Shown here: positions 3,883 to 29,635 of the stretch, piece after piece
Layout of the letters: the number at the start of each line of letters is the position of its first letter
How positions within the stretch are numbered: position 1 is the first letter of the stretch
Virus record (IMG/VR): IMGVR_UViG_3300009080_000049
Coordinates: 1-29,635 of that record
Length of the DNA stretch: 29,635 nt
From: a virus
Strand: one strand, 5' to 3'
Translations under genes and position numbers: made by a program
The notes under the pieces: generated by a model
Told to the model about the DNA's origin: nothing
Seen by the model: only the letters and a program-made list of their open reading frames with translations
Database searches by the model: none

Positions 3883-3889
3883 AGTCAGT

Positions 3890-3894
3890 CCTCC
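3890..3894 (-). promoter_or_regulatory. Shine-Dalgarno GGAGG for TTG start of gp47
   Basis: GGAGG on the minus strand, 7 nt ahead of the TTG codon. It decides the start, as no in-frame ATG is suitably placed. Confidence 0.8.
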
Positions 3895-3913
3895 ATTAGG
3901 CTCTTATATTAAT

Positions 3914-5765: not shown

Positions 5766-6067
5766 TGGCAAATTATACATCATCAAGTCCGTGGAAGCAA
5801 ACACCATACACTAGAAACGGCGCACTAGATATACTTAGAATAAGACCTGTGCCTAAATCATCAGACGATTCGAGTTACACTATTGAAACACAATATACTC
5901 ATAGACCAGACTTATTGGCATATGACCTTTATGGAACACCAAAACTATGGTGGGTGTTTGCACAGAGAAATATGGATATAATTAAAGATCCGGTATTTGA
6001 TATGGTTGCCGGAACAACTATATTTTTACCTAATCCGGCCAAACTTAAAAGAAAATTGGGAATATAA
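5765..6067 (+). CDS. gp53: gp53 baseplate wedge protein (short form)
   Basis: gp53 joins neighbouring wedges and fixes them around the hub. The 100 residues are about half of T4 gp53 (196) but hold its recognisable core: a RPDLLAYDLYGTPKLWWVFA segment (about 46-65), then NMDIIKDPVFDMVAGTTIFLP, a LysM-like fold shared with short tail proteins of other contractile phages. The N-terminal third (YTRNGALDILRIRPVPKSSDD) is polar. Start and stop touch the flanking genes (TAATG with gp48; TAAATG with the hub gene), indicating coupled translation. The short length is normal for marine T4-like phages as far as I recall. Confidence 0.85.
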   Translation: MANYTSSSPWKQTPYTRNGALDILRIRPVPKSSDDSSYTIETQYTHRPDLLAYDLYGTPKLWWVFAQRNMDIIKDPVFDMVAGTTIFLPNPAKLKRKLGI

Positions 6068-9000: not shown

Positions 9001-9622
9001 AAAAATTAAGAAAACTGGAAGAGTTACAGATGATTTTACAGACATGCCGGAAGACGGAACCGGATCAGCTATGGTAGCACTAGGTGAGAAGTATGGACTA
9101 GGATGGGGCGGTAATTGGAACAGTTCAACAGATGCTATGCATTTTTGTGCAGCAAAAGCTGAACAAGGCTCGTTTGAATGGCCGGCAAACGGATTAATTC
9201 CTGGAGGAACACCATTTGTTGGACCAACAAGACCAGACGGCACTGACACAAAAGATCCTAAACAAAAAACAGCAGCACTAGATGACGGGTACAGAGTTAG
9301 TGGCACACGTTCAATGACAACAACCCAATATGCAGGATACGAAAGTGCATTTCAAAATAGTGTACGTGGTGAATCAAGTATACGACCATACTTTCCTACA
9401 GACCCAACTGACAATCTATACAATATACAACTAGGTGACAAGGTAAAAGCAATATCTGCATTTTACACAGCTCAGGGTGTAGAAACAAGTAGACCAGTAA
9501 CACAATTATCGTCCGGGGTTACTTATAACGAGTTCGGAGATGAAGTAAATACAGCAACAGCACGAGACGTAACAGTAGAACCAGAAACTCAGCAATTCAA
9601 TCCTGGCACAACAGCAATTTAA
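6068..9622 (+). CDS. gp27-like baseplate hub protein with C-terminal M15 zinc peptidase
   Basis: This 1184-residue structural protein sits between gp53 and the gp5-like spike gene, where a hub ring protein is expected. Residues about 255-380 (YFIDDFDMTAILAAN, SFSVKEPYSMGIFLQALQG, LELDFVGFDDAG) and 690-860 (ANLEIWGDPYFLPDSGIGNY, GVYQVITVQSKISNNKFTQT) resemble tube-like hub domains; the gp27 identity is inferred from context. Residues about 915-1040 form a peptidase M15 domain: SYHASGLAIDIN with His962 and Asp969, and DAMHF with Asp1022 and His1025. The spacings match zinc ligands and catalytic Asp of the phage T5 L-alanyl-D-glutamate endolysin. It should cut peptidoglycan stem peptides during injection. 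The tail after 1050 is low-complexity and threonine-rich. T4 gp27 (391) has no such domain. Confidence 0.8.
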   Translation: MSINPKAIIENKAKTLTSNLGLDNFDASAQFGDIKNIATNVYDASGALSVLENPFSKTDIQGLGQKVASLGRSIPQLVNVDPSLSSIYPPSLNAFANGFGASLQSKADSLIQQVIPLANSVMTDVDLNAAVSDKLDSLVDAEFQSVLTDIEKILDGHPGSQKGSNSEPEKEPKGPGITIKNPLRLFNSVNAIFSLGVLTADSANNPVDTYLKNGADFTILNSGGGGIDDKRIQTAYDSAGEEKGNLEYFIDDFDMTAILAANSRTGATQAINFSFSVKEPYSMGIFLQALQGAAFDAGFENYLQAPYLLELDFVGFDDAGGRPAAYSKRSFPFKLVNIEFSVESGGSTYQVECIPWNEQSFDEEVQRITDPVSLTGESLLDVLSVGEQGLSTIINSKLEEIAKKTCQPATNYYLIRFPTKRTPPITKSMLAPPDTNKATQTDSEARASRKGSQTADVPEEDGLTSFFNSVGVDATNSSLLQTLKASGITDLNAIGASKMISDYKEGGDNPFGLGLYAYDKETNIYKRNGVELTISDKNRTFKFDQGTPITKIIEELVIVSEYGRTAIQRADQKGELSWFRIESQCYIISDQAYESANGEPAKIYVYDVVPYKVDASRFSAPNQAGPGLIEKAKHCVKTYNYIYSGKNEDVLGFDIKFDAAFYQAIQMDMGQLNASAVVNDREKTTITPQTPATGKPTDGNVIPEGKSRSVMKPGNFNGGSYNKQYGEELAKMFHNALINSPVDLITANLEIWGDPYFLPDSGIGNYTAPRGGTKNITAGGGVDHQRNEIDIIVNFRTPVDYNSDGTMFFSGADTLAVDSFSGVYQVITVQSKISNNKFTQTLELVRRRNQSTVGINKVKALVEKPGCESLNPNDIGPAGEPGSDYSEDTTNQDIGVVPPTGTNGPLATIRTSTGKATQVAAMFAKNFQGLIDELETEYNYEIKSLGGYAPRAIEGGSRPSYHASGLAIDINPAENPFRKIKKTGRVTDDFTDMPEDGTGSAMVALGEKYGLGWGGNWNSSTDAMHFCAAKAEQGSFEWPANGLIPGGTPFVGPTRPDGTDTKDPKQKTAALDDGYRVSGTRSMTTTQYAGYESAFQNSVRGESSIRPYFPTDPTDNLYNIQLGDKVKAISAFYTAQGVETSRPVTQLSSGVTYNEFGDEVNTATARDVTVEPETQQFNPGTTAI

Positions 9623-9634: not shown

Positions 9635-12037
9635 TTGGCAAAAAGTAAAAGAACTAATTTAAAGAAACTTGATATTGGACCAGGACCATTTGAAGCCATC
9701 GTAGTGAGCAATTTAGATACTACTTACATGGGCACATTAAAAGTTGATATTTTAAGAAATAATTCTTCAGGCAGTTTACCTGAAAAATTAGGCACATCAA
9801 TTGAAGTTAGATATCTATCACCGTTTTATGGTGTTACTAATCCCCAGCACACAACAAATAATGATGGATATGCAGCAACACAAAAAAGTTATGGTATGTG
9901 GTTTGTTCCACCTGATGTAGGTGCTAGAGTATTAGTAACTTTTGCAGAAGGCGATATTGCTAACGGTTTTTGGATTGGGTGTGTGCAGGACAAGTTTATG
10001 AACTTTATGGTTCCAGATGGCCGTGCATCAACTTCACTTACAACTCCGCAAACACCTGACAATGTACAAGGACTTAAATTACCAACAGGCGAATATAACA
10101 AAAAAGTTGAAAAGGGTAATGGCAGAGATCCAACAAGATATCTTAAACCATACAACAAAGATTTTACACAAACACTAGAAGTACAAGGATTAATTAGAGA
10201 CGAAAATAGAGGACTAACTTCTTCAAGTGCAAGACGAGAAGTACCGAGTACTGTATTTGGAATAAGCACACCTGGACCAGTAGATAAACGACAAGGTGCA
10301 CCTAAAGGATTAAAGGGAGAAGCAGGCCTTAAACATTCTGCTTTTGTAAATCGATTAGGCGGCTCGAGTTTTGTTATGGATGACGGTGATGACAAACTAT
10401 TAAGAGTTTCGCATGCATCAGCAGGTCCTCCAGCATATGCTAATATTGAAGCTGGCGAAGACTTTGGCCAAAGTACAATACCTCACAACGAACTGTTAAG
10501 ATTTAGAACTAGAACAGGGCATCAAATATTAATGCATAATAGTGAAGACTTTATCTATATTGCAAACAGTAGAGGCACAGCTTGGGTAGAATTAACTAGT
10601 GACGGGAAAATAGACGTATACGGATTAGATAGTATATCTATTCATAGTGATGCAGATATTAATCTTACAGCAGATAGAGATGTAAACATCGAAGGTGGCA
10701 GAAATGTAAACATGCGAGCCAGTGGTAGATATGATAATTTTGCTTCAGGCGGTGAAGTAAAAATAGAAAGCCAAACTAATACAACTTTAAGAGCTGAAAC
10801 TAATATGTTTGTAGATGTTGCTAAGGATCAAGATATTAAAATTGGCGGAATACAAAAGACATTAGTTACGGGTGATATACATCATCATACAAATGCAAAT
10901 TTATACATATTAGCAGATGAAGAAGGACATATAAAAGCTGGAACAAACATGCTTATTAATTCTACAGAAACTCTTAACTTAGTAGGAAAAGCATCATACT
11001 TAACAGCAACAGCAGGAGCAATTAATATCAATGCCGCTGGCGGCAACGTTGAAATTGACGGCGACACGGATATTAATTTAAACAGCAGCGCATCTTCGGC
11101 AGGTACAGATGCTACTGATGCAACAGACGCTGTGTCTGCAATACCGTTACCTACATGGACTGTACCTAAAACAAGCCCAGGAACAATAGTTCCATCAGAC
11201 GTAATTACTTTTGTAAAAAGGATGCCAAGTCACGAGCCATATGCACATCATGAAAATTTAGATCCTGTAATGCTTAAAAGTGAAAGAACAGATATTAATA
11301 ATGATGTTTCATTACCTAATGCTGCATTACTTAATACTGTAGATACTTTTAGAAAGAGTTTTACAGGTGGCACAAGATCGGACTCCTCAAATGTAGCAGA
11401 TACAAGCGGCACTAAAAGAGTTTATGGTGGTGTAGGAACTGCCGGTGCCGGTGGCGCCGATGATAAAGCACTAGCACAAAAATATTCTACTGTTGGAGCC
11501 GACGGAAATATATTAGACATTATTGGAGCAGCTGAAGGTGCAGGTTACAATACTCCTTATGGCGGAAGTAACATAACACCAATATCGTATTATGGAAAAC
11601 AGCTTTCAGAACTAACAGTGCAAGAAGTTTTAGATTGGCAAACAGCATCAATAAATGCAGGTTCAATTAGTAGTGCTGCCGGCAAATATCAAATAATTAA
11701 TAAGACTCTTAAAAGTCTTATTGACGGAGATGGAGTATTAAGCAGAACAGAGCTGTTTAGTCCTGCTAACCAAGATAAATTGTGTCGTAAGTTGCTACAG
11801 CGTAGAGGGGTTGATGCATTTAGGTCTGGTTCAAAATCTAGAAGATCATTCTGCTTATCAATGGCACAAGAGTGGGCAAGTTTACCAGTAATTGAAAAAA
11901 CATATTCTAAGCCAGCAAAACGAGTTGTTAATCCTGGTGAAAGTTATTATGCTGGTGTTGCTGGAAATAAGTCAAGAATATCTCCAACACAATTACTTGC
12001 GGCTGTTAACGTTATTAAATCAGACGGTTATGCATAG
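9635..12037 (+). CDS. gp5: gp5-like tail spike with OB fold, beta-helix and C-terminal lysozyme-like domain
   Basis: This 800-residue protein is the cell-puncturing spike of the baseplate hub. An N-terminal OB fold (about 14-130: GPFEAIVVSNLDTTYMGTLK, PPDVGARVLVTFAEGD, FWIGCV) binds the hub. A linker leads to a beta-helix region (about 320-485) with short repeats such as DINLTADRDVNIEGGRNVNM, like the T4 gp5 C-terminal needle. Residues about 620-760 resemble the lambda endolysin R (GH104-like): IIGAAEGAG with candidate catalytic Glu634, SSAAGKYQI near 679, SPANQDKLCRKLLQRRG, and QEWASLP near 745. It should cleave the glycan chain. In T4 the lysozyme lies between OB fold and helix and is a different family (GH24-like). 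The TTG start is set by GGAAG; the gap from the hub gene is 12 nt. Confidence 0.87.
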   Translation: MAKSKRTNLKKLDIGPGPFEAIVVSNLDTTYMGTLKVDILRNNSSGSLPEKLGTSIEVRYLSPFYGVTNPQHTTNNDGYAATQKSYGMWFVPPDVGARVLVTFAEGDIANGFWIGCVQDKFMNFMVPDGRASTSLTTPQTPDNVQGLKLPTGEYNKKVEKGNGRDPTRYLKPYNKDFTQTLEVQGLIRDENRGLTSSSARREVPSTVFGISTPGPVDKRQGAPKGLKGEAGLKHSAFVNRLGGSSFVMDDGDDKLLRVSHASAGPPAYANIEAGEDFGQSTIPHNELLRFRTRTGHQILMHNSEDFIYIANSRGTAWVELTSDGKIDVYGLDSISIHSDADINLTADRDVNIEGGRNVNMRASGRYDNFASGGEVKIESQTNTTLRAETNMFVDVAKDQDIKIGGIQKTLVTGDIHHHTNANLYILADEEGHIKAGTNMLINSTETLNLVGKASYLTATAGAININAAGGNVEIDGDTDINLNSSASSAGTDATDATDAVSAIPLPTWTVPKTSPGTIVPSDVITFVKRMPSHEPYAHHENLDPVMLKSERTDINNDVSLPNAALLNTVDTFRKSFTGGTRSDSSNVADTSGTKRVYGGVGTAGAGGADDKALAQKYSTVGADGNILDIIGAAEGAGYNTPYGGSNITPISYYGKQLSELTVQEVLDWQTASINAGSISSAAGKYQIINKTLKSLIDGDGVLSRTELFSPANQDKLCRKLLQRRGVDAFRSGSKSRRSFCLSMAQEWASLPVIEKTYSKPAKRVVNPGESYYAGVAGNKSRISPTQLLAAVNVIKSDGYA

Positions 12038-12052
12038 AGGGTAAATATTACT

Positions 12053-12499
12053 ATGAGTACATTAGAAAAAAACATATACAAAAGAGTAAAGGTATCGAGC
12101 TCTAAAAAACCTAAACAGCCAGCTTCAAGTTCTGCTTATAGGTCTATTAGCACAGTTAACCCTGCAAACGAAGGGTACAGACTATATGATCTTGCTGTTA
12201 TTAAACAAGATATAATAAATCACTTTCATATACGTCAAGGAGAAAAGTTAGAGAATCCTGAATTTGGAACTATTATTTGGGACACATTGTTTGACCCACT
12301 GACCGAAGGACTAAAAGCTGCAATTATAGAAAATGTAGAAGATATTGTTAACTATGATCCGCGTGTTTCTGTTAATAATATCATTGTTGACACATACGAA
12401 AGCGGCATACAAATTGAATGTACTCTAATATATTTAAAATACAGTATTGCTGAAGCTATGACACTACAATTTGATAGAGACATTGGCTTACTTGCTTAA
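12053..12499 (+). CDS. gp25: gp25 baseplate wedge protein
   Basis: gp25 is the sheath-initiating wedge component found in all contractile injection systems (GPW/gp25 family). The 148 residues compare with 132 in T4. The conserved core starts near residue 44 (YDLAVIKQDIINHFHIRQGE) and includes ENPEFGTIIWDTLFDP, the family's turn region, then helix EGLKAAIIENVEDIVNYDPR and a final beta-sheet (IQIECTLIYLKYSIAEAMTL). A basic, serine-rich N-terminal extension (1-40: KKPKQPASSSAYRS) is extra compared with T4. It starts 15 nt after the spike stop, with GAGG at the spike stop codon. It is followed by a 55-bp gap holding the late promoter for gp6. Confidence 0.93.
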   Translation: MSTLEKNIYKRVKVSSSKKPKQPASSSAYRSISTVNPANEGYRLYDLAVIKQDIINHFHIRQGEKLENPEFGTIIWDTLFDPLTEGLKAAIIENVEDIVNYDPRVSVNNIIVDTYESGIQIECTLIYLKYSIAEAMTLQFDRDIGLLA

Positions 12500-15500: not shown

Positions 15501-16034
15501 AAAATAAAATCAATAAGTGATGAAGTAATTTATCATCCAGTAAAATATAAGGAATTATTTGGTTCACTTGCTAAGACAAATTTACAAGCAACATTTAAAG
15601 TAGTAAAGAATCCAGATCAAGTCCTTAACGACAACGATGTAAAAACAAGATGTATTGAAGCAATTAATCAATACTTTGCATTAGAAAATTGGAATTTTGG
15701 AGACACTTTTTACTTTCAAGAATTGGCAACATATATTACAAACAGACTTGCACCAGACTTAGTAAGTGTAGTAATTGTACCTGATCAGCCAACACAGTCG
15801 TTTGGTAGTTTATTTGAAGTAAGAAGCGAAGTTGATGAAATTTTTATTAATAGTGCAACTGTAGCAGATATAGAAATAATAGATCAAATTACAGCTACTA
15901 GACTAAATGCGTCTGGCAGAGTTGTTACATCAAGCGAGACAGCAAACACAGGGATTACAAGTGCAACATCATTCACTAGTTCAAACAGTTCAAATAGTTC
16001 AAACAATTCAAGTAGCGGAGGAAGTTATTACTAA
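12555..16034 (+). CDS. gp6: gp6 baseplate wedge protein (enlarged)
   Basis: gp6 forms the inner ring that links the wedges, as a dimer clamping gp7 in T4. The 1159 residues are much longer than T4 gp6 (660). The N-terminal part is typical: NADFQSYDFDNLRRTMIEYL, PEDFNDYIESSEYLALIDLV and the helix ENFLELAERRESVLRLARLL. The C-terminal gp6/gpJ-like part is also clear: IYHPVKYKELFGSLAKTNLQ, CIEAINQYFALENWNFGDTF and LAPDLVSVVIVPDQP. The extra length lies in the middle, including a module near 820 (ADKDADGVIDDPELFLHIVD). The last 25 residues are almost only Ser, Asn, Thr and Gly, coded partly by a 9-bp tandem repeat. Its stop overlaps the next start (TAATG). Confidence 0.92.
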   Translation: MSATDRQNRLLVAEDWKTIYQSFRNADFQSYDFDNLRRTMIEYLRTNYPEDFNDYIESSEYLALIDLVAFLGQNLSFRIDLNARENFLELAERRESVLRLARLLNYNPRRNQSANGLLKFTAISTTEDLIDSNGTNLASQTIQWNDSTNSNWYEQFIKVINSSLPVNGVFGKPNKSEIVSGISTDQYRVNGVNTDVPVFAFEKPIEGKTTPFEIVSTDIEDGSLIEEAPVPGNNFAFMYRNDAQGPGSSNTGFFAHFRQGRLESGQFSVTQPTPNQTVSIDTENINDSDVWLFKLDGNNNESELWSKLDAVEGNNVIYNSINKKVRNIYSVLTRVDDRINLAFSDGVFGNLPKGNFKTYFRTSENRNMVITPTSISNISVNIPYLSKKGRVHTLTLTMGLETTVANSSRAETSLSIKQNAPATYYTQNRMITGEDYNVAPLGISQEIVKVKSVNRTSSGISRYFDLNDATGKYSNTNLYGNDGVIYKEYTTEKTSFNFNTQTDIEGIIINNVEPILDNKKVKHFYLDKFPKINTVDLNVYWNAVTEQTNTYTGKFQSLDAAGYQVGTFTTNSLKYIEAGTAIKFQAPTGFHFMEDGSLMAGDADHLGSALYKWTKVIAVAGNGLDVGLAETQGPIALADKIPTNCRLIQIRPMLANSLLDDVKVEIIDQTFAYNDFGLRYDDVNRVWRLVKATDLDKRSNFSTGFAGNVSNGNLDASWLLLFETNGETYKITYRGLRYVFESDREIKFYYDSSDKIYDTQKGKVIRDKLCVLNINTQPDSALPFTSGFDFDILESYRDKEGYVDTKKIEVTFADKDADGVIDDPELFLHIVDEDVNPLNKIIIHEKYLTDAGVEEFRYVESTNIQILESQTNAGPLSSYTDGQVFYFRDNNVFKKLDSTILELVTNSDYKAFVGRDKLKFHYVHVADTNNRIDPSASNIIDTYMLTKTYDRNYRLFIDGQILQQPLPPSSDELYRSYGRQLNKIKSISDEVIYHPVKYKELFGSLAKTNLQATFKVVKNPDQVLNDNDVKTRCIEAINQYFALENWNFGDTFYFQELATYITNRLAPDLVSVVIVPDQPTQSFGSLFEVRSEVDEIFINSATVADIEIIDQITATRLNASGRVVTSSETANTGITSATSFTSSNSSNSSNNSSSGGSYY
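15978..16013 (+). repeat. Tandem 9-bp repeat in the 3' end of gp6
   Basis: Four units of a 9-bp repeat (AGTTCAAAY, the last with changes) encode the SSN-type tail of gp6. Such repeats can change in number by slippage without breaking the frame. Confidence 0.7.
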
Positions 16035-19000
16035 TGTCTTACGATAACGATCAGACAGATTCACCGTTGCCAGCAGGCGACAACTCTAATAGAAAGAGTG
16101 TTGACTTACTTCCTAAATATTTTAGAACACAAGCAAATAAGAAAATACTTTCTAGTACAATAGATCAGTTAGTACAACCTGGCACAGCAGAAAAAGTTAG
16201 TGGCTATATGGGACGAAAAAATGCAAAAGCATTTAGGGCCGGCGACACATACATTGCTGATGTTACTGAACAAAGAGAAAACAGGCAGTTAGAACCAGCA
16301 ACAGTTTCTGTTGATGATTTAGGCAATGTAAACTTCTTTGCTGATTATCCTGACTATGTTAATCAAGTTAACAATTTTGCTGGAAGTGTTGCAAATCAGA
16401 GTAAATTAAATAGCCAAGAATATTATGCTTGGAATCCAAACATTGATTGGGATAAGTTTACAAATTTCCGTGAGTATTATTGGTTGCCAAACGGTCCTCA
16501 AACTGTAACAGTTTTTGGAAAAAGTTTAGAAGAAGTTAGTACATATACTGTAACAACAGAAGACCAAGATGACAATGTTGTTTACAAATTTTCACCACCA
16601 GGGTTTACACCTAATCCGGCATTGACTTTATATAGAGGTCAAACTTATACATTTGAAATTAACACACTAGGACATCCATTTTCGTTCTCTACAGATAGAC
16701 GATTTACTGATGCACCATTTGATGTAGTTAAACAAGCAGATGGCAGTTATAATATTGTATCAACTGGAAGTGCAGAAAATATATCTAGTTTATATGTACA
16801 AGGCATAACAGCAACAGACTTAAATGGCAATGAAATTAATCCTGTAAATGTTGAAGAAGGCTTTATTACATTTACAGTTCCATTTAATGCACCAGAGCAA
16901 TTATATTATTCAAGCCAAAGTGACGTTAACACTAGTGGCTATATCAAAGTATTTGACATAATTGAAAACACTGAAATTGATGTTAACGATATTATTGGAA
17001 AGAAAACTTATACAAGTTCTAATAAAGTTAAATTTAGTAACGGACTAAAAGTTAAGTTTGCTGGAAATGTTACACCTGAAATTTATAAAAATGACGAATG
17101 GTTTATTGAAGGTGTCGGTAGCGACATTAAACTAGTTAAGGAAAGTGACTTAGTTATTCCTGCTAGTTATGTTGGAGATAAATTAGTTCCGTTTGATAGT
17201 GAAGGGTTTGATAGATTGCCATTTGGTAATGCAAGTGCCTTTGCAGGAACTAAAGATTACATTATAGTTAATAGAGCAAGTGTTGATAGAAACGCTTGGT
17301 CACGTTACAACAAATGGTTCCATAAAGATGTAATTGAAAAATCTGCAGAATATAATGGACAAGTACCTACAGTAGATCAAAGTGCTAGAGCATCAAGACC
17401 TATTATTGAATTTAATGCAGGCTTAAAATTATTTAACTTTGGTACTAAGGCTAAAAATGATGTTGATCTAATTGATTTTAAAACTAAAGATGCATTTAGT
17501 ACAGTAGAAAATGCTACAGGATATAATATTGACGGCACAAATGTTGCTGAAGGTATGCGTATAGTTTTCAATGCAGATACAGATAGAAATGTAGTAGGTA
17601 AAATTTACACAGTTAACTTTATTCTAATTGATAATATTAGACAAATTAGTTTAATTGAAGATACTGATTCGACTCCGTTAGTAAATGAAACACTATTAGT
17701 TAAAGGCGGAACAACTTATAAAGGTAATTTATTTTACTTTAACGGATCTATGTGGAAAGTTGCACAAGACAAAATTAAAGTAAATCAGCAACCGTTATTT
17801 GATGTATTTGATAATAACGATGATAGTTTTACTACTTACAATGCTTCTACGTTTAGTGGAACACAATTATTTGGTTACAAACAAGGCACTGGCACTAATG
17901 ATTCAGAGCTAGGATTTCCATTATCGTACAGGGCAATTGAAAACTTTGGCGATATACAATTTAATTTTCCACTAGTTACTGATTCATTTGTATACGAAGA
18001 AAATAACGAAAATATAAATGTTAAAGTTGAAACAGGATATTTAAGAAAATATACGGACCTTAATACTTACGTTAGTGAAAATGGCTGGACTAAAGCACAT
18101 GCATTAAGTAGTCAAGCAATAATAAGACAGTACGTTGTAGATACTACAACAAATGATTTTGCTGTTGACGTTTTTGATGCAAGCGGCGACCTAAATGATT
18201 TAGTTGTAAAAGTTTATGTAAATAATTCTTTCAAACAAGAAACAACACACTACGAAATTAACAGAATTAATAGCATTGCATATGTAAGATTTAATAATGA
18301 TCTTACAGAAGACGATGTAGTAGTATTAAGATGCTACAGTGCTACAACTAAAAACAAAAACGGTTATTATGAATTAGCATATAACTTAGAACGCAATCCT
18401 ATGAACGAAAACATAGGCGATTTTACAATAGCTGAAGTTAACGATCATGTTAGCACAATTATTGAAAATACATTTGAGTATGACGGAAATACATTTCCCG
18501 GAGTAAGCAATCTAAGAGATATTGGTAACACGAGCAAGTACGGAACACGATTTGTAAAACATAGTGGTCCAATAGCATTAGCTAGTTACCACTTAACAGA
18601 TAAAAATGCAAACATTGTAAAAGCATTAAAATATGCTAGAATAGAGTACGCAAAATATAAAAGAGTATTTTTACAAGTTGCAGAAAATCTAGGATATGAT
18701 GGTCCTACCAAAGAACATGTTGATAAAGTATTAGAAGAAATAAACAGCCAAAAAACTGAAGGCATGTCGTTTTACTTCTCAGATATGTTGCCGCATGGTG
18801 CATCTAAAAGAACACTACATTCAGTAACAGCGAGTACTGGTACATTTTTTGCATTGTCAAAAGTTTTTACACTTGACACTTTGTCGCCAAATGGTGTATT
18901 AGTATACCTTAACGATCAGTTACTATGTCATGGAACAGATTATGTTTTTACTATAGAAGGCTTTGTAAATATTTCAGCAACATTAGCTGTTGGCGATGAA

Positions 19001-22000
19001 GTAGAAATATACGAATACGATACAACTGATGCTTGCTTTGTTCCTACTACACCGACTAAGTTAGGATTGTATCCAGCATATAAACCTGAAATATTTTTAG
19101 ATACAACATACCAAACACCAAAGACTGTTATTCAAGGTCATGACGGAAGCATTACGTTTGCTTACGGGGATTTTAGAGATAACTTAATATTAGATTTTGA
19201 AAGAAGAATATATAATAATTTAAAACAAAAGTACAACACAGACATTTTTGACATCACTGATTTCCAAGGCGGCAACTTTAGAGATACAGGGTTTAATAAT
19301 ATTGATATTAATAATGCAATGGTTTCGGATTTTGTACAGTGGAGTGTTATTGCAGGCGATCCTGATTATACTTCTAATAGTTTTTGGAAAGACACTGATA
19401 CATTTAGATACAACTATAAAAATATGTCATCTCCACAAGGCAATACGTTACCTGGATTTTGGAGAGGCGTATATATAAACGCATACGATACTGATCGTCC
19501 TCACAGTCATCCTTGGGAAATGTTAGGATTTAGTATTAAGCCAACATGGTGGGAAACAGAATACGGTGCAGCTCCATATACTAGAAATAACTTTGTACTT
19601 TGGGAAGATTTACAAAATGGTATTGTAAGAGAACCTGGTGTTCCTGCAAAAGTAGTTAAGAAATACAAAAGACCAAATTTAGTTAATCATATACCGGTAG
19701 ACGAAAATGGTAATTTATTAAGTCCGTTAGACAGCAACTATGCACAAAACTTTATTGCTGTTAAGACAAGAGATCCTTATGCATTTGGAGACCATACTCC
19801 TGCTGAGAGTGCTTGGAGAAAAAGTAGTGAATATCCGTTTGCATTAATTACTTCATGGTTATTAAATCAACCTGCAAAAGTAATGGGCACAGCGTTTGAT
19901 TTATCAAGGATTGAAAGAAATAAAGTAGGCAACCTTGTTTACAAACCTACTAATGCTATTATTAGATTAAAAGATTTATTATTTCCTAATACATATACTG
20001 ATAATCAAAGAGTTATAACTAGTGGACTCGTAAACTTTATATACAATTATATTGTAAGTGATATTAATACAAACTATAATGAATATCAAACAGAATTAAC
20101 ATCATTGTCTAACAGACTAGCATTAAAAGTAGGCGGCTTTACAGATAAGAGTAAGTTCAAATTAATATTAGATAGCAGAACTCCATTAAATCAAGGTAAT
20201 GTTTTTGTACCTACAGAAAATTATAAGTTATTTCTTAATACTTCGTCACCAGTTGATATCGCAACTTACAGCGGTGTTGTTATACAAAAAAATACAAATG
20301 GGTATGTAGTAAAGGGTTACGATCAGGCATTATCAACATTTAAATACTACGAGCCTATTGCAAGTCAAAGGGATCCTGTAATTAATATTGGCGGAATATC
20401 AGAAACATTTGTTAATTGGGATTCAGGCAAACAATATGTTAAAGGCCAAAATGTAAGATTTGATAGCTTTTACTATAGAGTAAGCGACAGTCATGTAAGT
20501 GGACAATCTTTTGATACTACTAAAATGTCTAAATTGGCAGAGCTTCCGTTAGTTGGAGGACGGTCAAATGTACTTAGACGACAGTTTACAAACAGAGTTA
20601 AGACTATATCATACGGTACATTACTAAGAACAACACAAGACGTAGTTGACTTTTTATTGGGCTATGAAGCGTATTTAAAACAGCAAGGTTTTGTATTTGA
20701 ATACTACAATAAAGATATTAGTGTAGTTGAAGATTGGACTTACAGTGTAAAAGAATTTATGTTCTGGACCACACAGAATTGGGCAGCAGGCACAGTTATT
20801 ACACTTAGTCCAGGCGCACAACAATTTAACTTTACCCGTCCATATGTTGTAGTTGATAATATCTTTGATAATTTTTATGATTATAGTTTATTAAAAGCAG
20901 ATGGTCAAAAATTAGATAAGAGCTTTAGTAGTATTGCTAGAGACAGTGAAAACCAGTTTGGGCTAACTGTTAAAAATTCAGCAGACGGCATTTACAGTGT
21001 AAAACTTCCGTTAGTACAAAGAGAACATGTTATATTATTAGATAATAAAACAGTTTTTGGAGATGTAATTTACGACCAAGAAGCAGGTTACAGACAAGAG
21101 AGAATTAAAGTTACTGGTTATAGAAGTGATAATTGGAGTGGCGGATTAAATATTCCTGGATTTGTTTATGACGAAGCTGAAGTAAGAGATTGGACGCCTT
21201 ATAAAGATTACGGAATAGGAAAGCTAGTAAAACACAAAGAATTTTATTATGTTGCAATAATAGATGTTACTGGGACAGAATTCTTTATTGACAACCAATG
21301 GCAACGTTTAGACGAACGTCCAGAAGCAAAACTAATACCAAACTTTGAATACAAAATAAATCAGTTTGCAGACTTTTATGATTTAGATACAGACAACTTT
21401 GATCTAGAGCAACAGAAACATGCACAACATTTAATTGGTTACCAGAAAAGAAAATATCTTGAAAACATTATTAATGATGAAGTTTCACAATATAAGTTTT
21501 ATCAAGGTATGTTACAAGATAAAGGAACATCAAATTCTTTAATTAATTTATTTGATGCACTTGCAAGTGCTGACAAAGAAAGTTTAGAATTTTACGAAGA
21601 ATGGGCGTTAAGAGTAGGCCAATATGGCGCAACTGAAAATTTTGATAATGTAGAGTTTTTACTTGACGAGTCAAAAATTAAAACTAATCCGCAACCAATT
21701 GAATTAGTATCTAGTATACCAGCTAATGATACCGATACTATTTACAAATTAACTCCTGAAGAAGTATATTTAAAGCCACAAAACTACGATCATAAACCGT
21801 TTCCAACAATTACTGATTACACATCGTTTGTAAAAGACGCTGGATTTGTATTTGATCAAGATATTAGTTACAGAATTAATGATAAGTCAGACATACTTAC
21901 AGCTGATATATCTGTTATAGGTGCAGATGATTATGTTTGGGTAACAGGAGAAAATAGTAACTGGGACGTACTTCAGCATGTTACTACTGACCTGCGAGTA

Positions 22001-25000
22001 ACAGCAATATCATCATTTGCTGCAGGACGAGATACAATAGATGGCACTGAAGGACCGGGAGGCTTGTTTACATTTAATAAAGCTCATCCGTTTGTTAGAG
22101 GTGATATTATTGGTGTACAAAGTACATCAGCATCTAACGATGCATTTTACTCAGTTGAATCAGTGTTTGCTAATTCTATCGAAGTGCTGTCAGGTCAAAA
22201 TCAAACAATTGAAACGTTAGAAGAAACAGATGGATTTGTTAGTGTACTTAGGTCAGTAAAATATGACACTATAAAAGAAGCAAATGCTATACTAGAAAAT
22301 AAAGTTCTAAAAAATCAAAAAATATGGGTAGGTGATACAGGCAATTGGATAGTTCCGATTAAGAATAGTGTTTACACAGAAAAAACACATTACAATAATC
22401 CGTCAGACTACGATAACACTTCGACATACGAGTTTGGGTCTTCAATGACATCAAATTCTTCAAATACTAAATTAGCATTTGGAGACCATAGTGCTAATAA
22501 CAATAAAGGATTAGTTTACACTTATCAAAGAGGGTCAAATTTAAGAGAGTTACTTTACGAAGCAACACTTGAATTAGATACTAGTGTTTACCCAGTAAGT
22601 GACGATCACCGTTTTGGTACAGATATTGACATTAGTGCTGATGGTAAGTATCTTATTGTAGGTTCTAGCACAGCGTCTGACGTAGCATCAAATTATAAAA
22701 GTAACTATGCAACAAGCATAGAGTACAGCGAAAATGACATAGTTAAGTATGACGAAAACTATTGGAAGGCTGTAAGAACTATTACTCCTGAAAGTGGAAG
22801 CATTGCATTTAGTACGTTTGATAGTTATGCAAATCTTGAAAGAGCAAGTGATAGTAGTTTATTAACATTGGTATTACAAGGTAATCCATACCTTCCTAAT
22901 ACTTCAACAGACCATTTATTAATAGCTGCACCGTTTGACCAATACAGAGGTACAAAACCTCAAGACAAGTTAGTACTTAATTGGAATTCGTTTACTAACT
23001 TTAATCGAAATACAGGCTCGTCTAACTCAGTTGAATTGTTTCCGCAAGGAATTAACGCACAAAATACAGCATCACAATACACTGAACCAAATGCAAACTT
23101 TATCGAAGGCGAGCATTTAATTATAGAAAAAATTGATTCAGTATTGCTTGTAGAGCCATTTACAGATCCGCCACAAGACGGTGACATAATTGAAACAGCA
23201 AGTGGTTCAGCAACAATTTATAAAGCATTCCAAAGAGACTTTAAACTTGTACTTTACATAAAAGATACTAACGGAGTATTTGGACCATCAGGTACTATTA
23301 ATAATTCTAATGGTACATTAATTGGTAATTATACACAGCCTAATTACAATGGCACAACTAGCGCAATCGGTGGTTGGTGGTATATCAATATGCCTGCTAC
23401 CCAAACTTACTTAACATCAGATGAATTTACTAATCCTAGTGATTATGGTATTCCTGCGTATGGTTTAGTATATCAAGATATATTAGTTTACGACGAAGTT
23501 AATGACTCGTATGCAAGAACAACACCAAACTTTTATAACAACATACTTGATGATGTTAACTCTACTATTTTTCCAACTAGAGATGAACCAGGATTTGTAA
23601 GTGTTCTATCCCATAGAGGTGCAGCATACACTAATGTTGATAACGATGGTATACAAAATATTTTAGATAATAGATGGTTACTTAGAATACCTCCAAGTTT
23701 AGCTGGACAAATTAATCAGCCTAACGATAAATTTAGAGCTTACATTGACGACCAAGCAGTACCAGCAGATTTTGATTTACTAGGCATTGACGCTAGTTAT
23801 ATTAACGATAACGAACACACTGTTATAGATATGTGGGAAGGATATATTGACTTTACATTTACTAAAACACAGGGTGCAGACGTTGTCATGTTATCAGACC
23901 AGGACATTGATACTGGTGACTTCTTTGAACCTGCATACATAGGCAAAGTGTTTACAGACATAAACGGTGCAATTGTAAATGTAAATGGAGCAGATGGCGA
24001 CTTTATAAGAGATGATCGTACAGGTGCAAGGGCTAGGGTAGCTTATTATATTCGAAGAGCTACTGATCAAGGCAGAGTTTATCTTAAAGATGTTACAGGC
24101 ACTTTTGTACAAGGCAACAGAATGTTACTTGAAACAAAGGAAGGCGTAGCAGAACTAGATAACTTGCGTATCATGGGTCCAATCAATAAAATATCTGTAA
24201 CAGGAAATAATACAGGTAAAATTGCTGTAATGCAAAAAGGAACAACGTTTCCAGCTCACCCAGAGTCATATGGTGGTTTAGATCAGTTTAGAGATTTAAA
24301 CTCTTTTGCATATGTAAACAAAGAATTTTGGATTTACAAAGAAAACTTAACAGAGGCTGGAACAGATGCTCCGGCAAGTATTCCTAGTACATCAAATAGT
24401 GATTGGCAATTAGTTTACAACCTGCCAGTTACTACAGCAGGGTCACAAGTAAGCAAGCCAGCTAACCAAGGTGTCTACAGTATCTTTAACAGAATAGGTA
24501 GTACATGGGTTAACCGAGGCACTTTTGAAATTCCTAATAGTAGTACAAATAGTAATGTAGGTCAGCAAGTTGCTGTAAGTCAAGAAAATGATTTATATAG
24601 ATTCTACGTTGGATCAAAAGAAAATTTAACAGTTATAAAACACGGTACTGACAAGTACGGCAAACAATATAACTATGCATTTGATATTAATCCTCATTAC
24701 AGAGGTGAATATAATGTAGACGCAACATATAAAACAGATGAAATTGTGTTATATAGTAACCAATTATATTCTGCATTAACTTTTGTTAAAGGTGTAACAC
24801 CAACAAACACTCTTAAGTGGAGAATACTTAACAGTCAAGTTAACTATTTGCCAACTTTACCAAATGCTGTTAATATATTTAACGACCCGGCGTTTGACGA
24901 CTTAGGCGAAAGTGTAACAGACTTTACTAAACAAATTACAGTAAGCGATAATGGACAAGTACTTGCAATTAGTATTGTAACAGATGTGTCTGTTGATGCA

Positions 25001-28000
25001 GATAACAAAGTTCTTGTGTATAGAATATTAGATGACAGGTATGTAATAGATCAAACAATTGTTGCACCAGTATCAAACACTGGTTGGGGCAGTAGTATTG
25101 ATCTTAGTGAAGATGGAGACACTTTAGTTATTGCAGATCCTGAAAGTGATATAGACGGATACAATACAGGAAAAGTTTATGTGTACGCTAAATCAAACAA
25201 CACATTTGAAATGCACCAAGTATTATCCGGTACAGGCACACAATCAGAAAAGTTTGGTAACAAAGTTAGTATTTCAAAAGATATAATTGCTGTTACAAGC
25301 GGAAACGGTGATGTAGCAACTGATACATTATTCGATGGCGACATAACAACATTTGACGATACATTTACATCCTTCCCCGATAAGAAAATTGATAGCGGAA
25401 GTGTTAGGTTGTATCAAAAAGTAAAAGATGCATTTATACTAGCAGAAGAACTAGATTATGATGGTGACCTTACAGTATTATCAGCAAGTAGATTTGGTGA
25501 GCAAGTATTAATTAATGACAATCATGTTTATGTTGGTGTACCTGGTGATCCAAATGATTACTATACTGAAGATACAAATCCAGGCAGTTTTGTTGATTAT
25601 CAAGTTAATCAGGGTACTAAACCTTGGACTACATTAAGATCACCTAATGAAATTGTTGATATTAAAAAGATTAAATCAGCATTTTTGTATAATACAAAAA
25701 CAAATAGCCTTGTTGAGTACTTAGATTATATTGATCCAATACAAGGTAAAATTGCAGGACCAGCAGAACAAGAATTAACATTTAAATCTAATATTGACCT
25801 TGCACGTTACAATGTTACAACACTACCTGATTACTTTAGCGAAACAAGTAATTGGGAAGAAAAGTATGTAGGAAAATTATGGTGGGATCTTAGCACAACA
25901 AGATTCTATAATCCATATCAACAAGACATTGTTAATCAAGCAAATGTCTGGAGTAAATTAATACCTAACTACTCAGTTGATGTTTATGAATGGGTTGAAA
26001 GCACCATTCCCCCAGCTGAATGGGATTCATTAGCAGACACAAGTGAAGGTTATGCTAAAGGTATTAGCGGAACGTCTAAGTATGGTAATAATGCATATAG
26101 TCAAAAACTAGCATACGATACATTGTCCCAAACATTTAGCGACAAGTATTACTTCTGGGTAAAAAATAAGAAAACAATACCAGCTGGTGATCCAACAAGA
26201 TCAATTAGTGGGTTTGAAGCAGAAGGATTAATTGGAAATCCAAGAGGACAAGGTTATAGTTTCTTAGCATTATTAAGTAATGACAGATTTGTGTTATATA
26301 ATAGCGAGCGTTTACTTAAAGATAAAGACGTTGCATTACATGTAAGTTACTATACACAAGATACACAAGAACAGAATTCACATCTTGAATATCATATTGT
26401 TACAGAAGGCTTAGAAACAAGTGTTCCTAAAGCAGATATAGAAAGAAAGTGGATTGATAGTTTAATTGGATACGATACTAGGGGTCGACCTGTTCCGAAT
26501 CCAGAGTTAAGTTTACGAGAAAAATACGGAACATTAAACAGTCCAAGACAAAGTTGGTTTGTAAATAGACAAGAAGCATTCAAACAAGTTATTGAAAGAG
26601 CAAATATAACTTTAAAAGAAAATATTATTGTAGATGATTTTAGTTTTAGTACACTTAATAGTGCCGATGTACAACCTTTTGTTACTGATAGAACATATGA
26701 TTATAAAATTGATACATTGGATGAGCTTGATTTTATTGGCATTAATAAAATACAAACAGCGATACTTCGAGCATCAATACATGGCGGCACTGTTACAGAT
26801 ATAAGAATAATAAATTCTGGTAGAGGATATTCAGACCCTACATATGATATTACAACATCAACTGTTAGACATGGACCAAGTTTTGAATTATTTGGCAACG
26901 GCAGCGGACTAGATTTTAATTTAGAGATTAATAACTTAGGTCAAATTAGTAAAGTAAATATTATTAATGGTGGATCTGGATACGATGAAAATTTAAGAAT
27001 TGAAGTTAGACCACTTACAGTACTTGTTGAAAATGATTCAACAGTAAATAACAAATGGGCTACATACGAATACAATAAAAATTCAAACGTATGGAACAGA
27101 ATACTATCACAAAGTTACGATACTACAGAATATTGGGATTATGTAGATTGGTATGCACCTAACTATACTCAGTTTACTAGAATTGATCATAGAGTAGACG
27201 AAAGTTACCAACTAGCGTCAACAAATGCTAAACTTGGACAAATTGTAAAAATTGACAATATTGGCAACGGCGGCTGGTTACTACTAAAACGTACAGCAGA
27301 AACAAACTCAACTGATTACACAATTGACTATGATACAATTGGTAGAGAAAACGGCACAATTGAAATTAATAGTAAACTATACAATGTTATTGAAAACACT
27401 GTTGGTTACGACTTATTAGGTTACGATAATAGATTCTTTGATACTGAACCTGTTACAGAAGCCAGACAAATAATGACAGCACTAAAGAATGATATATTTG
27501 TTGACAATCTTGCTGTTAAATGGCAAGAGCTGTTTTTTGCAAGTATTAGATATGTGCTTTCAGAACAACAAAATGTTGATTGGGTTTATAAAACAAGTTT
27601 TGTAAAAGCAAAACATAATGTAGGCGACTTAACACAAAAAATAAATTATCAGAATGATAATTTAGAAAGTTACAATGACTACATAAACGAAGTTAAGCCT
27701 TACAAAACAAATGTACGTGAATATTTAAGTTCTTATGAAAACGTTGATAACACAAAAACACAAACAAGTGATTTTGATGTTCCTCCTTATTATGATTTTA
27801 CACAAAACGGAATCAAAACTAAGTCAGTTAAAATTACTGACAACTCATTAGTTGGTGTAGATTCGTTCTTTGATGATTATCCATATAAAAACTGGAGCGA
27901 GAACTACGGATTTAAAGTTATTGCTGTAAACATTTACAATGGCGGAAGTAATTATACATATCCTCCAACAGTTACTATTTCAGGCGGAGGCGGCACAGGT

Positions 28001-29635
28001 GCAACAGCAAAAGCATATCTTGGTGCAGGCAAAGTTGTAAACATTGTAGTTACAAATACAGGTACTGGATATACATCTGCACCAACAGTTACTATTACTG
28101 GATCACAGGCAGACGGATCTACAACAGCAATAGCATCAGCACAAATAGGCGAAACTGTTGTTAGAAGTATGCATGTCGAAATGAAGTTTGATAGAGTATC
28201 GGGCGAATATGTTATAATTGAATTACCAGAAACAGAAACATTTACTGGTACAGCAATTAACGATAAGTTTGCACTAAAATGGCCAATGAACTTAAGACGT
28301 AACAAAGTAAAAATTACGTTAAATGGTCAAATTTTACTACGTAGTGAGTATACGTTTACTAATATAGAAGACAATACTTATACCTATAAGCGATACAAAG
28401 GGCAAGTACAACTTACAACAACACCGCCGTTAGGATCAATAATTGTCGTAGAGTATGAAAAACAATCAACTATACTAAATGCACAAGACAGAATAAACCA
28501 TTTGTATAATCCTACTACAGGAATGCTAGGTAAAGAATTAAGTCAATTAATGACTGGCATTGACTATGGCGGAGTTGAAGTTAAGAGCTTTGGGTTCGAA
28601 GGTACATCGGGTTGGATGACTGACGAGTATGGTGCAGATACTTGGGATAGCTATGATAACGAATTCCAAGACGAAATATTCTTTGCAGACGGCACTACTG
28701 TTGCTATAGAACTAGATAATCCATTAGAAGACGGAATACAATATAATGTATACCTAAAACGTTCTGGACAAACTAAAGCAATTAGAATTGATGATCCTAA
28801 CTACGGTAATAATCCTGCAAATACACTTGCAAAGATGCAAACACTTACAGGTGACGGTGTAACACAGACTATTAATTTAGCAGAAAACGATATAGAAGTT
28901 AGCGATGGTGATATTGTTACTATAAGAAAAATAACTAGTGATGGTAGTTTTAAACCAGATCCTGATTCTTATGACACACTGTTAACAGGCGGCCAATTAG
29001 ACTATGGTAATGCAGCAGGTGTAAACGCAGATGATATTATTTTAGACGGTGATTTATTTGTTACTCCGCTAAATGCAGGCGGTCCTGAAGAATTAGTTAA
29101 CGGGCAAGTTATGGACTCGGTCAATATTACAGTGTTTGAAAGAACCGGTGAAGGCCAAGGACAAATATATAATCAAAATTATATAACTGACGGAACAACA
29201 ACTGAGTACCCATTAGGATTGTTACCAAACAGCAACGATGCTGTTATTGTTAAATTAGGTAATACAATAATTGATGCTAGTTTGTATACTGTTGATTATA
29301 AAACACTTACATTGGCATTTAAAGTTGCTCCGGTAACTGATCAAATATTAACAATTTTAACAGTTGGCGTAAACGGTCAAAACATAATTGATATAGGTAC
29401 AATAATTAGTGTAGCCGATGAAAATGTATATCAAACAAACATACTTTGGGACGATAATTATCAAATCTTCCTTAGAAAAGATGGTAACACACCAGACGGA
29501 CTTGAGCTTATTGCAAGGAAAGATAATGTTAACGGATTTATTGAATTTGAATTTAATCCACAAGTGCCAGTAGTTGGTACTAGATTAGATTATGAAATTT
29601 ATTCAAACAGTGATCAAATTAATTATAGTAAAATA
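16034..29635 (+). CDS. Giant baseplate/tail protein at the gp7 position, 3' end beyond the window
   Basis: An ATG overlapping the gp6 stop opens a frame with no stop for 4534 codons, to the last base of the window. Modules by residue: cupredoxin-like fold 190-305 (LTLYRGQTYTF, GHPFSF); conserved structural segments 412-482, 821-890, 1011-1186 and 1245-1296; CBM5/12-like modules near 1460-1501, 1718-1760, 2229-2256 and 2891-2933; FG-GAP-like propeller strands 2135-2217 and 2963-3176; glycine/tyrosine repeats 3583-3660 and 3962-4040; LNGQ-type hairpins near 4086-4143 and 4386-4450. From memory, marine T4-like phages carry similar giant structural proteins after gp6; T4 gp7 (1032 residues) occupies this place. 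Wedge role, with possible glycan binding, is inferred. GGAGGAAG at 16017-16024 is the likely Shine-Dalgarno. Confidence 0.88.
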   Translation, partial: MSYDNDQTDSPLPAGDNSNRKSVDLLPKYFRTQANKKILSSTIDQLVQPGTAEKVSGYMGRKNAKAFRAGDTYIADVTEQRENRQLEPATVSVDDLGNVNFFADYPDYVNQVNNFAGSVANQSKLNSQEYYAWNPNIDWDKFTNFREYYWLPNGPQTVTVFGKSLEEVSTYTVTTEDQDDNVVYKFSPPGFTPNPALTLYRGQTYTFEINTLGHPFSFSTDRRFTDAPFDVVKQADGSYNIVSTGSAENISSLYVQGITATDLNGNEINPVNVEEGFITFTVPFNAPEQLYYSSQSDVNTSGYIKVFDIIENTEIDVNDIIGKKTYTSSNKVKFSNGLKVKFAGNVTPEIYKNDEWFIEGVGSDIKLVKESDLVIPASYVGDKLVPFDSEGFDRLPFGNASAFAGTKDYIIVNRASVDRNAWSRYNKWFHKDVIEKSAEYNGQVPTVDQSARASRPIIEFNAGLKLFNFGTKAKNDVDLIDFKTKDAFSTVENATGYNIDGTNVAEGMRIVFNADTDRNVVGKIYTVNFILIDNIRQISLIEDTDSTPLVNETLLVKGGTTYKGNLFYFNGSMWKVAQDKIKVNQQPLFDVFDNNDDSFTTYNASTFSGTQLFGYKQGTGTNDSELGFPLSYRAIENFGDIQFNFPLVTDSFVYEENNENINVKVETGYLRKYTDLNTYVSENGWTKAHALSSQAIIRQYVVDTTTNDFAVDVFDASGDLNDLVVKVYVNNSFKQETTHYEINRINSIAYVRFNNDLTEDDVVVLRCYSATTKNKNGYYELAYNLERNPMNENIGDFTIAEVNDHVSTIIENTFEYDGNTFPGVSNLRDIGNTSKYGTRFVKHSGPIALASYHLTDKNANIVKALKYARIEYAKYKRVFLQVAENLGYDGPTKEHVDKVLEEINSQKTEGMSFYFSDMLPHGASKRTLHSVTASTGTFFALSKVFTLDTLSPNGVLVYLNDQLLCHGTDYVFTIEGFVNISATLAVGDEVEIYEYDTTDACFVPTTPTKLGLYPAYKPEIFLDTTYQTPKTVIQGHDGSITFAYGDFRDNLILDFERRIYNNLKQKYNTDIFDITDFQGGNFRDTGFNNIDINNAMVSDFVQWSVIAGDPDYTSNSFWKDTDTFRYNYKNMSSPQGNTLPGFWRGVYINAYDTDRPHSHPWEMLGFSIKPTWWETEYGAAPYTRNNFVLWEDLQNGIVREPGVPAKVVKKYKRPNLVNHIPVDENGNLLSPLDSNYAQNFIAVKTRDPYAFGDHTPAESAWRKSSEYPFALITSWLLNQPAKVMGTAFDLSRIERNKVGNLVYKPTNAIIRLKDLLFPNTYTDNQRVITSGLVNFIYNYIVSDINTNYNEYQTELTSLSNRLALKVGGFTDKSKFKLILDSRTPLNQGNVFVPTENYKLFLNTSSPVDIATYSGVVIQKNTNGYVVKGYDQALSTFKYYEPIASQRDPVINIGGISETFVNWDSGKQYVKGQNVRFDSFYYRVSDSHVSGQSFDTTKMSKLAELPLVGGRSNVLRRQFTNRVKTISYGTLLRTTQDVVDFLLGYEAYLKQQGFVFEYYNKDISVVEDWTYSVKEFMFWTTQNWAAGTVITLSPGAQQFNFTRPYVVVDNIFDNFYDYSLLKADGQKLDKSFSSIARDSENQFGLTVKNSADGIYSVKLPLVQREHVILLDNKTVFGDVIYDQEAGYRQERIKVTGYRSDNWSGGLNIPGFVYDEAEVRDWTPYKDYGIGKLVKHKEFYYVAIIDVTGTEFFIDNQWQRLDERPEAKLIPNFEYKINQFADFYDLDTDNFDLEQQKHAQHLIGYQKRKYLENIINDEVSQYKFYQGMLQDKGTSNSLINLFDALASADKESLEFYEEWALRVGQYGATENFDNVEFLLDESKIKTNPQPIELVSSIPANDTDTIYKLTPEEVYLKPQNYDHKPFPTITDYTSFVKDAGFVFDQDISYRINDKSDILTADISVIGADDYVWVTGENSNWDVLQHVTTDLRVTAISSFAAGRDTIDGTEGPGGLFTFNKAHPFVRGDIIGVQSTSASNDAFYSVESVFANSIEVLSGQNQTIETLEETDGFVSVLRSVKYDTIKEANAILENKVLKNQKIWVGDTGNWIVPIKNSVYTEKTHYNNPSDYDNTSTYEFGSSMTSNSSNTKLAFGDHSANNNKGLVYTYQRGSNLRELLYEATLELDTSVYPVSDDHRFGTDIDISADGKYLIVGSSTASDVASNYKSNYATSIEYSENDIVKYDENYWKAVRTITPESGSIAFSTFDSYANLERASDSSLLTLVLQGNPYLPNTSTDHLLIAAPFDQYRGTKPQDKLVLNWNSFTNFNRNTGSSNSVELFPQGINAQNTASQYTEPNANFIEGEHLIIEKIDSVLLVEPFTDPPQDGDIIETASGSATIYKAFQRDFKLVLYIKDTNGVFGPSGTINNSNGTLIGNYTQPNYNGTTSAIGGWWYINMPATQTYLTSDEFTNPSDYGIPAYGLVYQDILVYDEVNDSYARTTPNFYNNILDDVNSTIFPTRDEPGFVSVLSHRGAAYTNVDNDGIQNILDNRWLLRIPPSLAGQINQPNDKFRAYIDDQAVPADFDLLGIDASYINDNEHTVIDMWEGYIDFTFTKTQGADVVMLSDQDIDTGDFFEPAYIGKVFTDINGAIVNVNGADGDFIRDDRTGARARVAYYIRRATDQGRVYLKDVTGTFVQGNRMLLETKEGVAELDNLRIMGPINKISVTGNNTGKIAVMQKGTTFPAHPESYGGLDQFRDLNSFAYVNKEFWIYKENLTEAGTDAPASIPSTSNSDWQLVYNLPVTTAGSQVSKPANQGVYSIFNRIGSTWVNRGTFEIPNSSTNSNVGQQVAVSQENDLYRFYVGSKENLTVIKHGTDKYGKQYNYAFDINPHYRGEYNVDATYKTDEIVLYSNQLYSALTFVKGVTPTNTLKWRILNSQVNYLPTLPNAVNIFNDPAFDDLGESVTDFTKQITVSDNGQVLAISIVTDVSVDADNKVLVYRILDDRYVIDQTIVAPVSNTGWGSSIDLSEDGDTLVIADPESDIDGYNTGKVYVYAKSNNTFEMHQVLSGTGTQSEKFGNKVSISKDIIAVTSGNGDVATDTLFDGDITTFDDTFTSFPDKKIDSGSVRLYQKVKDAFILAEELDYDGDLTVLSASRFGEQVLINDNHVYVGVPGDPNDYYTEDTNPGSFVDYQVNQGTKPWTTLRSPNEIVDIKKIKSAFLYNTKTNSLVEYLDYIDPIQGKIAGPAEQELTFKSNIDLARYNVTTLPDYFSETSNWEEKYVGKLWWDLSTTRFYNPYQQDIVNQANVWSKLIPNYSVDVYEWVESTIPPAEWDSLADTSEGYAKGISGTSKYGNNAYSQKLAYDTLSQTFSDKYYFWVKNKKTIPAGDPTRSISGFEAEGLIGNPRGQGYSFLALLSNDRFVLYNSERLLKDKDVALHVSYYTQDTQEQNSHLEYHIVTEGLETSVPKADIERKWIDSLIGYDTRGRPVPNPELSLREKYGTLNSPRQSWFVNRQEAFKQVIERANITLKENIIVDDFSFSTLNSADVQPFVTDRTYDYKIDTLDELDFIGINKIQTAILRASIHGGTVTDIRIINSGRGYSDPTYDITTSTVRHGPSFELFGNGSGLDFNLEINNLGQISKVNIINGGSGYDENLRIEVRPLTVLVENDSTVNNKWATYEYNKNSNVWNRILSQSYDTTEYWDYVDWYAPNYTQFTRIDHRVDESYQLASTNAKLGQIVKIDNIGNGGWLLLKRTAETNSTDYTIDYDTIGRENGTIEINSKLYNVIENTVGYDLLGYDNRFFDTEPVTEARQIMTALKNDIFVDNLAVKWQELFFASIRYVLSEQQNVDWVYKTSFVKAKHNVGDLTQKINYQNDNLESYNDYINEVKPYKTNVREYLSSYENVDNTKTQTSDFDVPPYYDFTQNGIKTKSVKITDNSLVGVDSFFDDYPYKNWSENYGFKVIAVNIYNGGSNYTYPPTVTISGGGGTGATAKAYLGAGKVVNIVVTNTGTGYTSAPTVTITGSQADGSTTAIASAQIGETVVRSMHVEMKFDRVSGEYVIIELPETETFTGTAINDKFALKWPMNLRRNKVKITLNGQILLRSEYTFTNIEDNTYTYKRYKGQVQLTTTPPLGSIIVVEYEKQSTILNAQDRINHLYNPTTGMLGKELSQLMTGIDYGGVEVKSFGFEGTSGWMTDEYGADTWDSYDNEFQDEIFFADGTTVAIELDNPLEDGIQYNVYLKRSGQTKAIRIDDPNYGNNPANTLAKMQTLTGDGVTQTINLAENDIEVSDGDIVTIRKITSDGSFKPDPDSYDTLLTGGQLDYGNAAGVNADDIILDGDLFVTPLNAGGPEELVNGQVMDSVNITVFERTGEGQGQIYNQNYITDGTTTEYPLGLLPNSNDAVIVKLGNTIIDASLYTVDYKTLTLAFKVAPVTDQILTILTVGVNGQNIIDIGTIISVADENVYQTNILWDDNYQIFLRKDGNTPDGLELIARKDNVNGFIEFEFNPQVPVVGTRLDYEIYSNSDQINYSKI

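Follow-up and report, generated by a model that had tools for sequence, protein, structure and literature searches.

The T4 baseplate genes run in the order gp25-gp6-gp7-gp8, and gp7-type proteins, of which T4 gp7 (1032 aa; PDB 5IV5/5HX2) is the reference, form a core bundle with two copies of gp6 (PMC10457771, PMC6300606). Marine cyanophages encode giant proteins of 3,884-6,817 aa directly after gp6. Several of them are annotated gp7 (P-SSM2, 5195 aa; P-HM1, 4446; Bellamy, 4067) and others lie in the same slot (S-CAM9, 3884 aa; ACG-2014f, 4225; Syn33, 6376; ACG-2014d, 6817); as a set, they can be tied to T4 gp7 by profile, weakly yet credibly (89%, T4 alignment columns 732-820). Another group, catalogued as PHROG 10938 ("virion structural protein"), belongs to jumbo phages and ranges from 3,323 to 4,555 aa among isolates. 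Its members phAPEC6 gp245 (381.9 kDa, 17 unique peptides; PMC7247149) and CBB_236 (21 peptides; PMC5259590) were found in virions by mass spectrometry, and the sequence record of PA5oct gp355 carries an ESI-MS/MS note of virion detection; this proteomics places the protein in the virion, not specifically in the baseplate. We found no solved structure for either group of giant proteins.

Here we describe a window of 29,635 bases, an entire IMG/VR record, in which a giant open reading frame directly follows gp25 and gp6, and thus lies in the gp7 position, as a sequence-only reading of this DNA had proposed. Its product matches phrog_10938 over five stretches (1070 bits), and tblastn finds full-length relatives in Atu_ph07 (gp180, 4449 aa), Phosso (294, 4555 aa), PA5oct (3857 aa), SCTP-2 (gp140, 3807 aa), Vibrio 2.275.O (gp424, 3771 aa), RaK2 (ORF070, 3326 aa) and 121Q (gp582, 3323 aa), among others; megablast of the window against phages gave no match. 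The protein is probably part of the baseplate. That the family is already catalogued limits the surprise. The sequence-only reading had also supposed relatives in marine T4-like phages, which the cyanophage giants in the slot after gp6 bear out, and had known of no functional description of them; this holds for structure, and falls short in that relatives are catalogued and detected in virions and that the cyanophage counterparts carry gp7 annotations.

Extent and integrity of the giant frame

The frame begins with ATG and stays open through the end of the window, so that its 4,534 codons are a minimum; because the window is the whole record, the end of the gene is missing by truncation. We took the missing part from L089 and L090, two near-identical contigs with 25 and 18 residue differences from the window where they overlap it; in both, the frame runs 477 residues further before a stop. 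The complete protein would thus have 5,011 aa, a mass of 563 kDa and a pI of 4.6, which agrees with the earlier estimates of at least 4,534 codons, over 500 kDa and a size over four times that of T4 gp7 (now 4.9 times; 5,011 vs 1,032). An open frame of the same length, 5,011 residues, occurs in the more diverged contigs G001 and G004, and other contigs have 4,946 residues. Close to the contig end, at 29549-29570, several differences lie together (EFNPQVPV in the window, VFSPKPPV in L090), which may reflect strain variation or an error at the end of the contig.

At the base composition of the window, the chance of so long an open run is ~1e-158. The dN/dS ratio is 0.07-0.15 in every 500-codon block relative to L091 and L097, and 0.07-0.20 relative to L014, and purifying selection acts along the whole length of the ORF. 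It could be supposed that assembly had joined two or more genes into one frame, as a stop or frameshift interrupts it in four relatives (L032, L069, L110 and L117) and L092 has a 2-base indel close to the ORF end. However, the four breaks each fall at a different place, a single frame spans the N-terminal and middle parts in 109 of 113 related loci, and independent relatives and isolates have single frames. The breaks in these five contigs are probably themselves assembly errors, and we consider the chance of such an artefact in the giant frame negligible. Purifying selection together with the uninterrupted loci indicates that the ORF is neither a chance run nor an assembly product; it is a genuine gene, whose product, at about 5,000 aa, is among the largest phage proteins.

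Table 1. Features of the window, with residue numbers referring to the inferred 5,011-residue protein
Feature	Position	Strand	Evidence
gp53-like baseplate wedge protein	5765..6067	+	phrog_7145 E=9e-25
Virion structural protein with M15 peptidase domain	6068..9622	+	phrog_11190; Peptidase_M15_4 57 bits
gp5-like hub and tail lysozyme	9635..12037	+	phrog_13211, phrog_90; DUF2345 and Phage_base_V above cutoff
gp25-like wedge / sheath initiator	12053..12499	+	phrog_261, phrog_43
gp6-like baseplate wedge protein, 1159 aa	12555..16034	+	phrog_10646 E=9e-304; phrog_219 E=5e-25; hhalign 98.7% to cyanophage/T4 gp6
Giant virion-protein ORF, residues 1-4534	16034..29635	+	ORF listing; phrog_10938 E=0; stop in L089/L090
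Family-wide N-terminus, residues 20-160, predicted helices, low monomer confidence	16091..16513	+	HMM match in 7/7 isolate relatives; alignment; AlphaFold2
Cupredoxin-like beta domain, residues about 168-310, partly lineage-specific	16535..16963	+	Foldseek; boundaries by eye (sequence, strands)
Best conserved family block, residues 1001-1900	19034..21733	+	Occupancy and identity profile; alignment
CBM5/12-type chitin-binding fold (predicted), residues 1461-1503	20414..20542	+	Weak by sequence, consistent by structure
Highly conserved helical segment, residues 1769-1870, low monomer pLDDT	21338..21643	+	Alignment; AlphaFold2
First FG-GAP-like propeller blades, residues 2133-2230	22430..22723	+	Sequence pattern, by eye
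Remaining FG-GAP blades, residues 2814-3170	24473..25543	+	FG-GAP_2 27.7 bits (cutoff 23); pattern by eye
Second block conserved in isolate relatives, residues 3201-3900	25634..27733	+	Occupancy 0.71-0.98 outside residues 3601-3700, less within them
Gly-rich 'NGGSNYT..PTVTI' repeats, residues 3961-4062, common to cyanophage gp7 and gp8	27914..28219	+	blastp; phrog_460; phrog_438

Gene neighbourhood

The same-strand block upstream of the giant gene includes a structural protein, the gp53-like gene, the M15-peptidase virion protein, the hub gene, gp25 and gp6 (Table 1); the same block is seen in PA5oct, 121Q, RaK2 and Vibrio 2.275.O. The stop of the gp6-like gene overlaps the start of the giant ORF by one base (TAATG), and the giant frame lies directly 3' of gp6 in 110 of 111 loci. 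In SCTP-2, which is outside these 111 loci, gp6 lies near 231-235 kb and the giant gene at 128-139 kb, ~92 kb apart, so adjacency to gp6 is not obligatory. A second giant ORF, of 3096 aa, stands immediately upstream of the phrog_10938 homologue in that phage (L085, 5630-14920), with gp6 elsewhere.

The opposite strand of the window carries SbcC/SbcD-like (gp46/gp47) and late sigma factor (gp55) genes, as well as a small gene at 423-872 with matches both to phrog_447 (NAD synthetase) and to PHROGs of homing endonucleases. The large protein encoded between gp53 and the hub gene has a domain of the M15 D-Ala-D-Ala carboxypeptidase type, which, together with the gp5-like lysozyme, makes two candidate murein-cutting enzymes in the baseplate region. 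A short tandem repeat (9/18-base unit) at 15977-16015 encodes an Asn/Ser-rich tail at the gp6 C-terminus. Since a related metagenome contig measures 238 kb, the source phage is very probably a jumbo phage.

While gp25 and gp6 precede the giant as in T4, the gene after it is not the gp8 that the sequence-only reading had expected. In L090 (14858-15478) it encodes a 206-aa protein of phrog_11259, a conserved group with no assigned function, followed by three proteins (694, 609 and 499 aa) that are tail or fibre-like. Homologues 37-57% identical to the phrog_11259 protein occur in PA5oct, Atu_ph07, Phosso, SCTP-2, Vibrio 2.275.O and RaK2, mostly just 3' of the giant gene. We considered this protein as a small gp7 or TriB and rejected it, as its profile matches neither gp7 nor gp6. 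Matches of the gp8 profile phrog_438 inside the giant frames of relatives reflect common repeats, not gp8.

Domains of the giant protein and its relation to gp7

By alignment occupancy, blocks 1-160, 400-1900 and 3200-3900 are common to the isolate relatives, and the rest varies. We modelled residues 1-1190 (51 sequences, pLDDT 80) and 990-1995 (52 sequences, pLDDT 76) with AlphaFold2; most of the Foldseek matches in BFVD were to the giant's own family. The cupredoxin-like region resembles two-domain laccases and nitrite reductase (Foldseek against PDB, prob 0.99-1.00), and residues 201-300 are nearly absent from isolate relatives. For residues 1461-1503, Pfam CBM5/12 scores 17.7 bits, below cutoff, and a profile match to chitinase A1 (1ed7) has E=0.024; in the 990-1995 model, Foldseek against PDB superposes the CBM5/12 fold at about 2 A over 42-48 columns. 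The two sets of FG-GAP blades are separated, by eye, by a ~600-residue insert. The later set includes an FG-GAP_2 Pfam match above cutoff near residues 3018-3051 and, near residues 2892-2915, a CBM5/12-like insert (CBM_5_12 20.5 bits, below cutoff). Occupancy in the isolates is low across region 2100-3200, which accounts for much of the extra length of the window giant. The Gly-rich repeats match cyanophage proteins at 39-47% (blastp). The predicted CBM5/12 fold, split FG-GAP propeller and cupredoxin-like domain lend support to the proposed presence of glycan-binding add-ons.

The extreme length, and the alternation of modular conserved blocks with variable stretches, might also suggest a polyprotein-like precursor that is cut into several virion proteins after synthesis. 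Yet we found no evidence of cleavage, and proteomics lists the homologues as single proteins, at a coverage of about 8% that does not decide the matter; we regard such processing as very unlikely.

Turning to T4 gp7, hhalign gave a probability of at most 1% in every part of the window giant tested, including 500-residue pieces, and the Pfam gp7 helical domain, domain V and domain VI, present in T4-type gp7, are absent from the window giant. Foldseek of the models of residues 1-1995 against PDB found no gp7 among the best 50 matches per model, the possibly partner-dependent helices being of low confidence in these models, and phmmer against PDB gave no match for the window, 121Q and PA5oct giants or for the window gp6. 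As these sequence features are not found, we make no claim that the giant belongs to the T4 gp7 family. Compared with cyanophage giant gp7, its N-terminal and core segments reach at most about 3% by hhalign, and matches are confined to C-terminal repeat regions. The conserved helical segments were also considered as a gp6 helical domain, to which they show no resemblance. Because gp7-type proteins bundle with gp6, the low-confidence helices of the N-terminus and of residues 1769-1870 would fit an interface that needs a partner, and the latter segment is a possible partner interface.

The earlier statement that there is no separate gp7-sized gene is in keeping with our searches, in that T4-type gp7 (phrog_964) was found in none of the seven isolate relative genomes, and neither PF23786 nor the P2-gpI-like TriB (PF09684) scored above cutoff in isolate relatives. 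This absence is weak evidence, because even the cyanophage P-SSM2 gp7 matches phrog_964 over only 70 positions.

We favor, with moderate confidence, the view that the giant is a baseplate wedge organiser onto which surface-binding modules have been fused. It would assemble beside the gp6-like protein, in the place taken by gp7 in T4. Its wedge scaffold would consist of the N-terminal ~160 residues together with blocks 400-1900 and 3200-3900, and the variable middle, with its chitin-binding-like folds and FG-GAP propeller, and the beta-repeat C-terminus would extend outward to carry fibres or contact the cell surface. We infer that the giant sits in the baseplate, that it acts in a gp7-like way and that its add-ons serve in binding. 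This view accounts for the phrog_10938 match, the adjacency to gp6, the homologues in virions, the cyanophage giants in the same slot, the lack of T4-type gp7 and TriB in isolate relatives, the pattern of common blocks and variable remainder, and the CBM5/12 and FG-GAP_2 matches. Against it stand the missing T4 gp7 matches, by profile and, for residues 1-1995, by Foldseek, the separation from gp6 in SCTP-2, and the fact that gp8 is not next.

The same observations in part suit the main alternative, in which the giant is a side-fibre or adhesin-type baseplate appendage and another, unrecognised protein has the gp7/TriB role. The beta-rich composition, the FG-GAP, CBM5/12 and cupredoxin-like domains, the lack of gp7 homology, the distance from gp6 in SCTP-2, and the fibre-like genes downstream all point in that direction. 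However, the giant keeps its slot immediately after gp6, the cyanophage giants of that slot are linked to T4 gp7 by profile, and the one small conserved neighbor, the ~200-aa gene that comes next, matches neither gp7 nor gp6 by profile; we therefore regard an appendage as possible, though rather unlikely.

The wedge organiser reading has a stronger form, in which one 563-kDa chain merges the organiser with glycan- and surface-binding modules (CBM5/12 folds, an FG-GAP propeller with inserts, repeat arms). Six copies would then account for the greater part of the distal baseplate and would themselves sense the cell surface, and the likeness to cyanophage giant gp7 would reflect either convergence or deep divergence. 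We hold this form to be doubtful. The merged wedge and glycan-binding chain of the sequence-only reading thus stands as to predicted glycan-binding-like modules and a likely virion and baseplate role, and not as to T4 gp7, for which profile, Pfam and, over residues 1-1995, Foldseek gave no match.

Comparison with known giant proteins

Among marine T4-related phages, two groups encode giant proteins after gp6. Should the role be confirmed, adding host-contact modules to the contraction trigger through baseplate gigantism would be a recurrent strategy, and the isolates RaK2, 121Q and PA5oct make the role of the giant directly testable.

The window giant shares with T4 gp7 the gene-order position after gp25 and gp6; in the parts tested, no relation to it can be detected by sequence or by fold, and the window giant is 4.9 times as long. 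The likeness to cyanophage giant gp7 extends to the slot after gp25-gp6, a comparable size class, and Gly-rich repeats near residues 3961-4062. However, the cyanophage proteins show no detected N-terminal homology to the window giant, keep the weak match to T4 gp7, and are followed, where seen, by gp8, whereas the giant of the window's relatives is followed by phrog_11259. The PHROG 10938 proteins of isolates, by contrast, are homologous to it over residues 20-1900 and 3200-3900, and their genes, like that of the window, lie directly after gp6 in all phages examined except SCTP-2. The window giant is longer (5011 vs 3323-4555 aa) and has two parts that most of the isolates lack at that place, the FG-GAP propeller region and the cupredoxin-like domain. 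Judged by its sequence, it is a marine, longer member of the already catalogued giant virion protein family of RaK2/Atu_ph07/PA5oct-type jumbo myophages.
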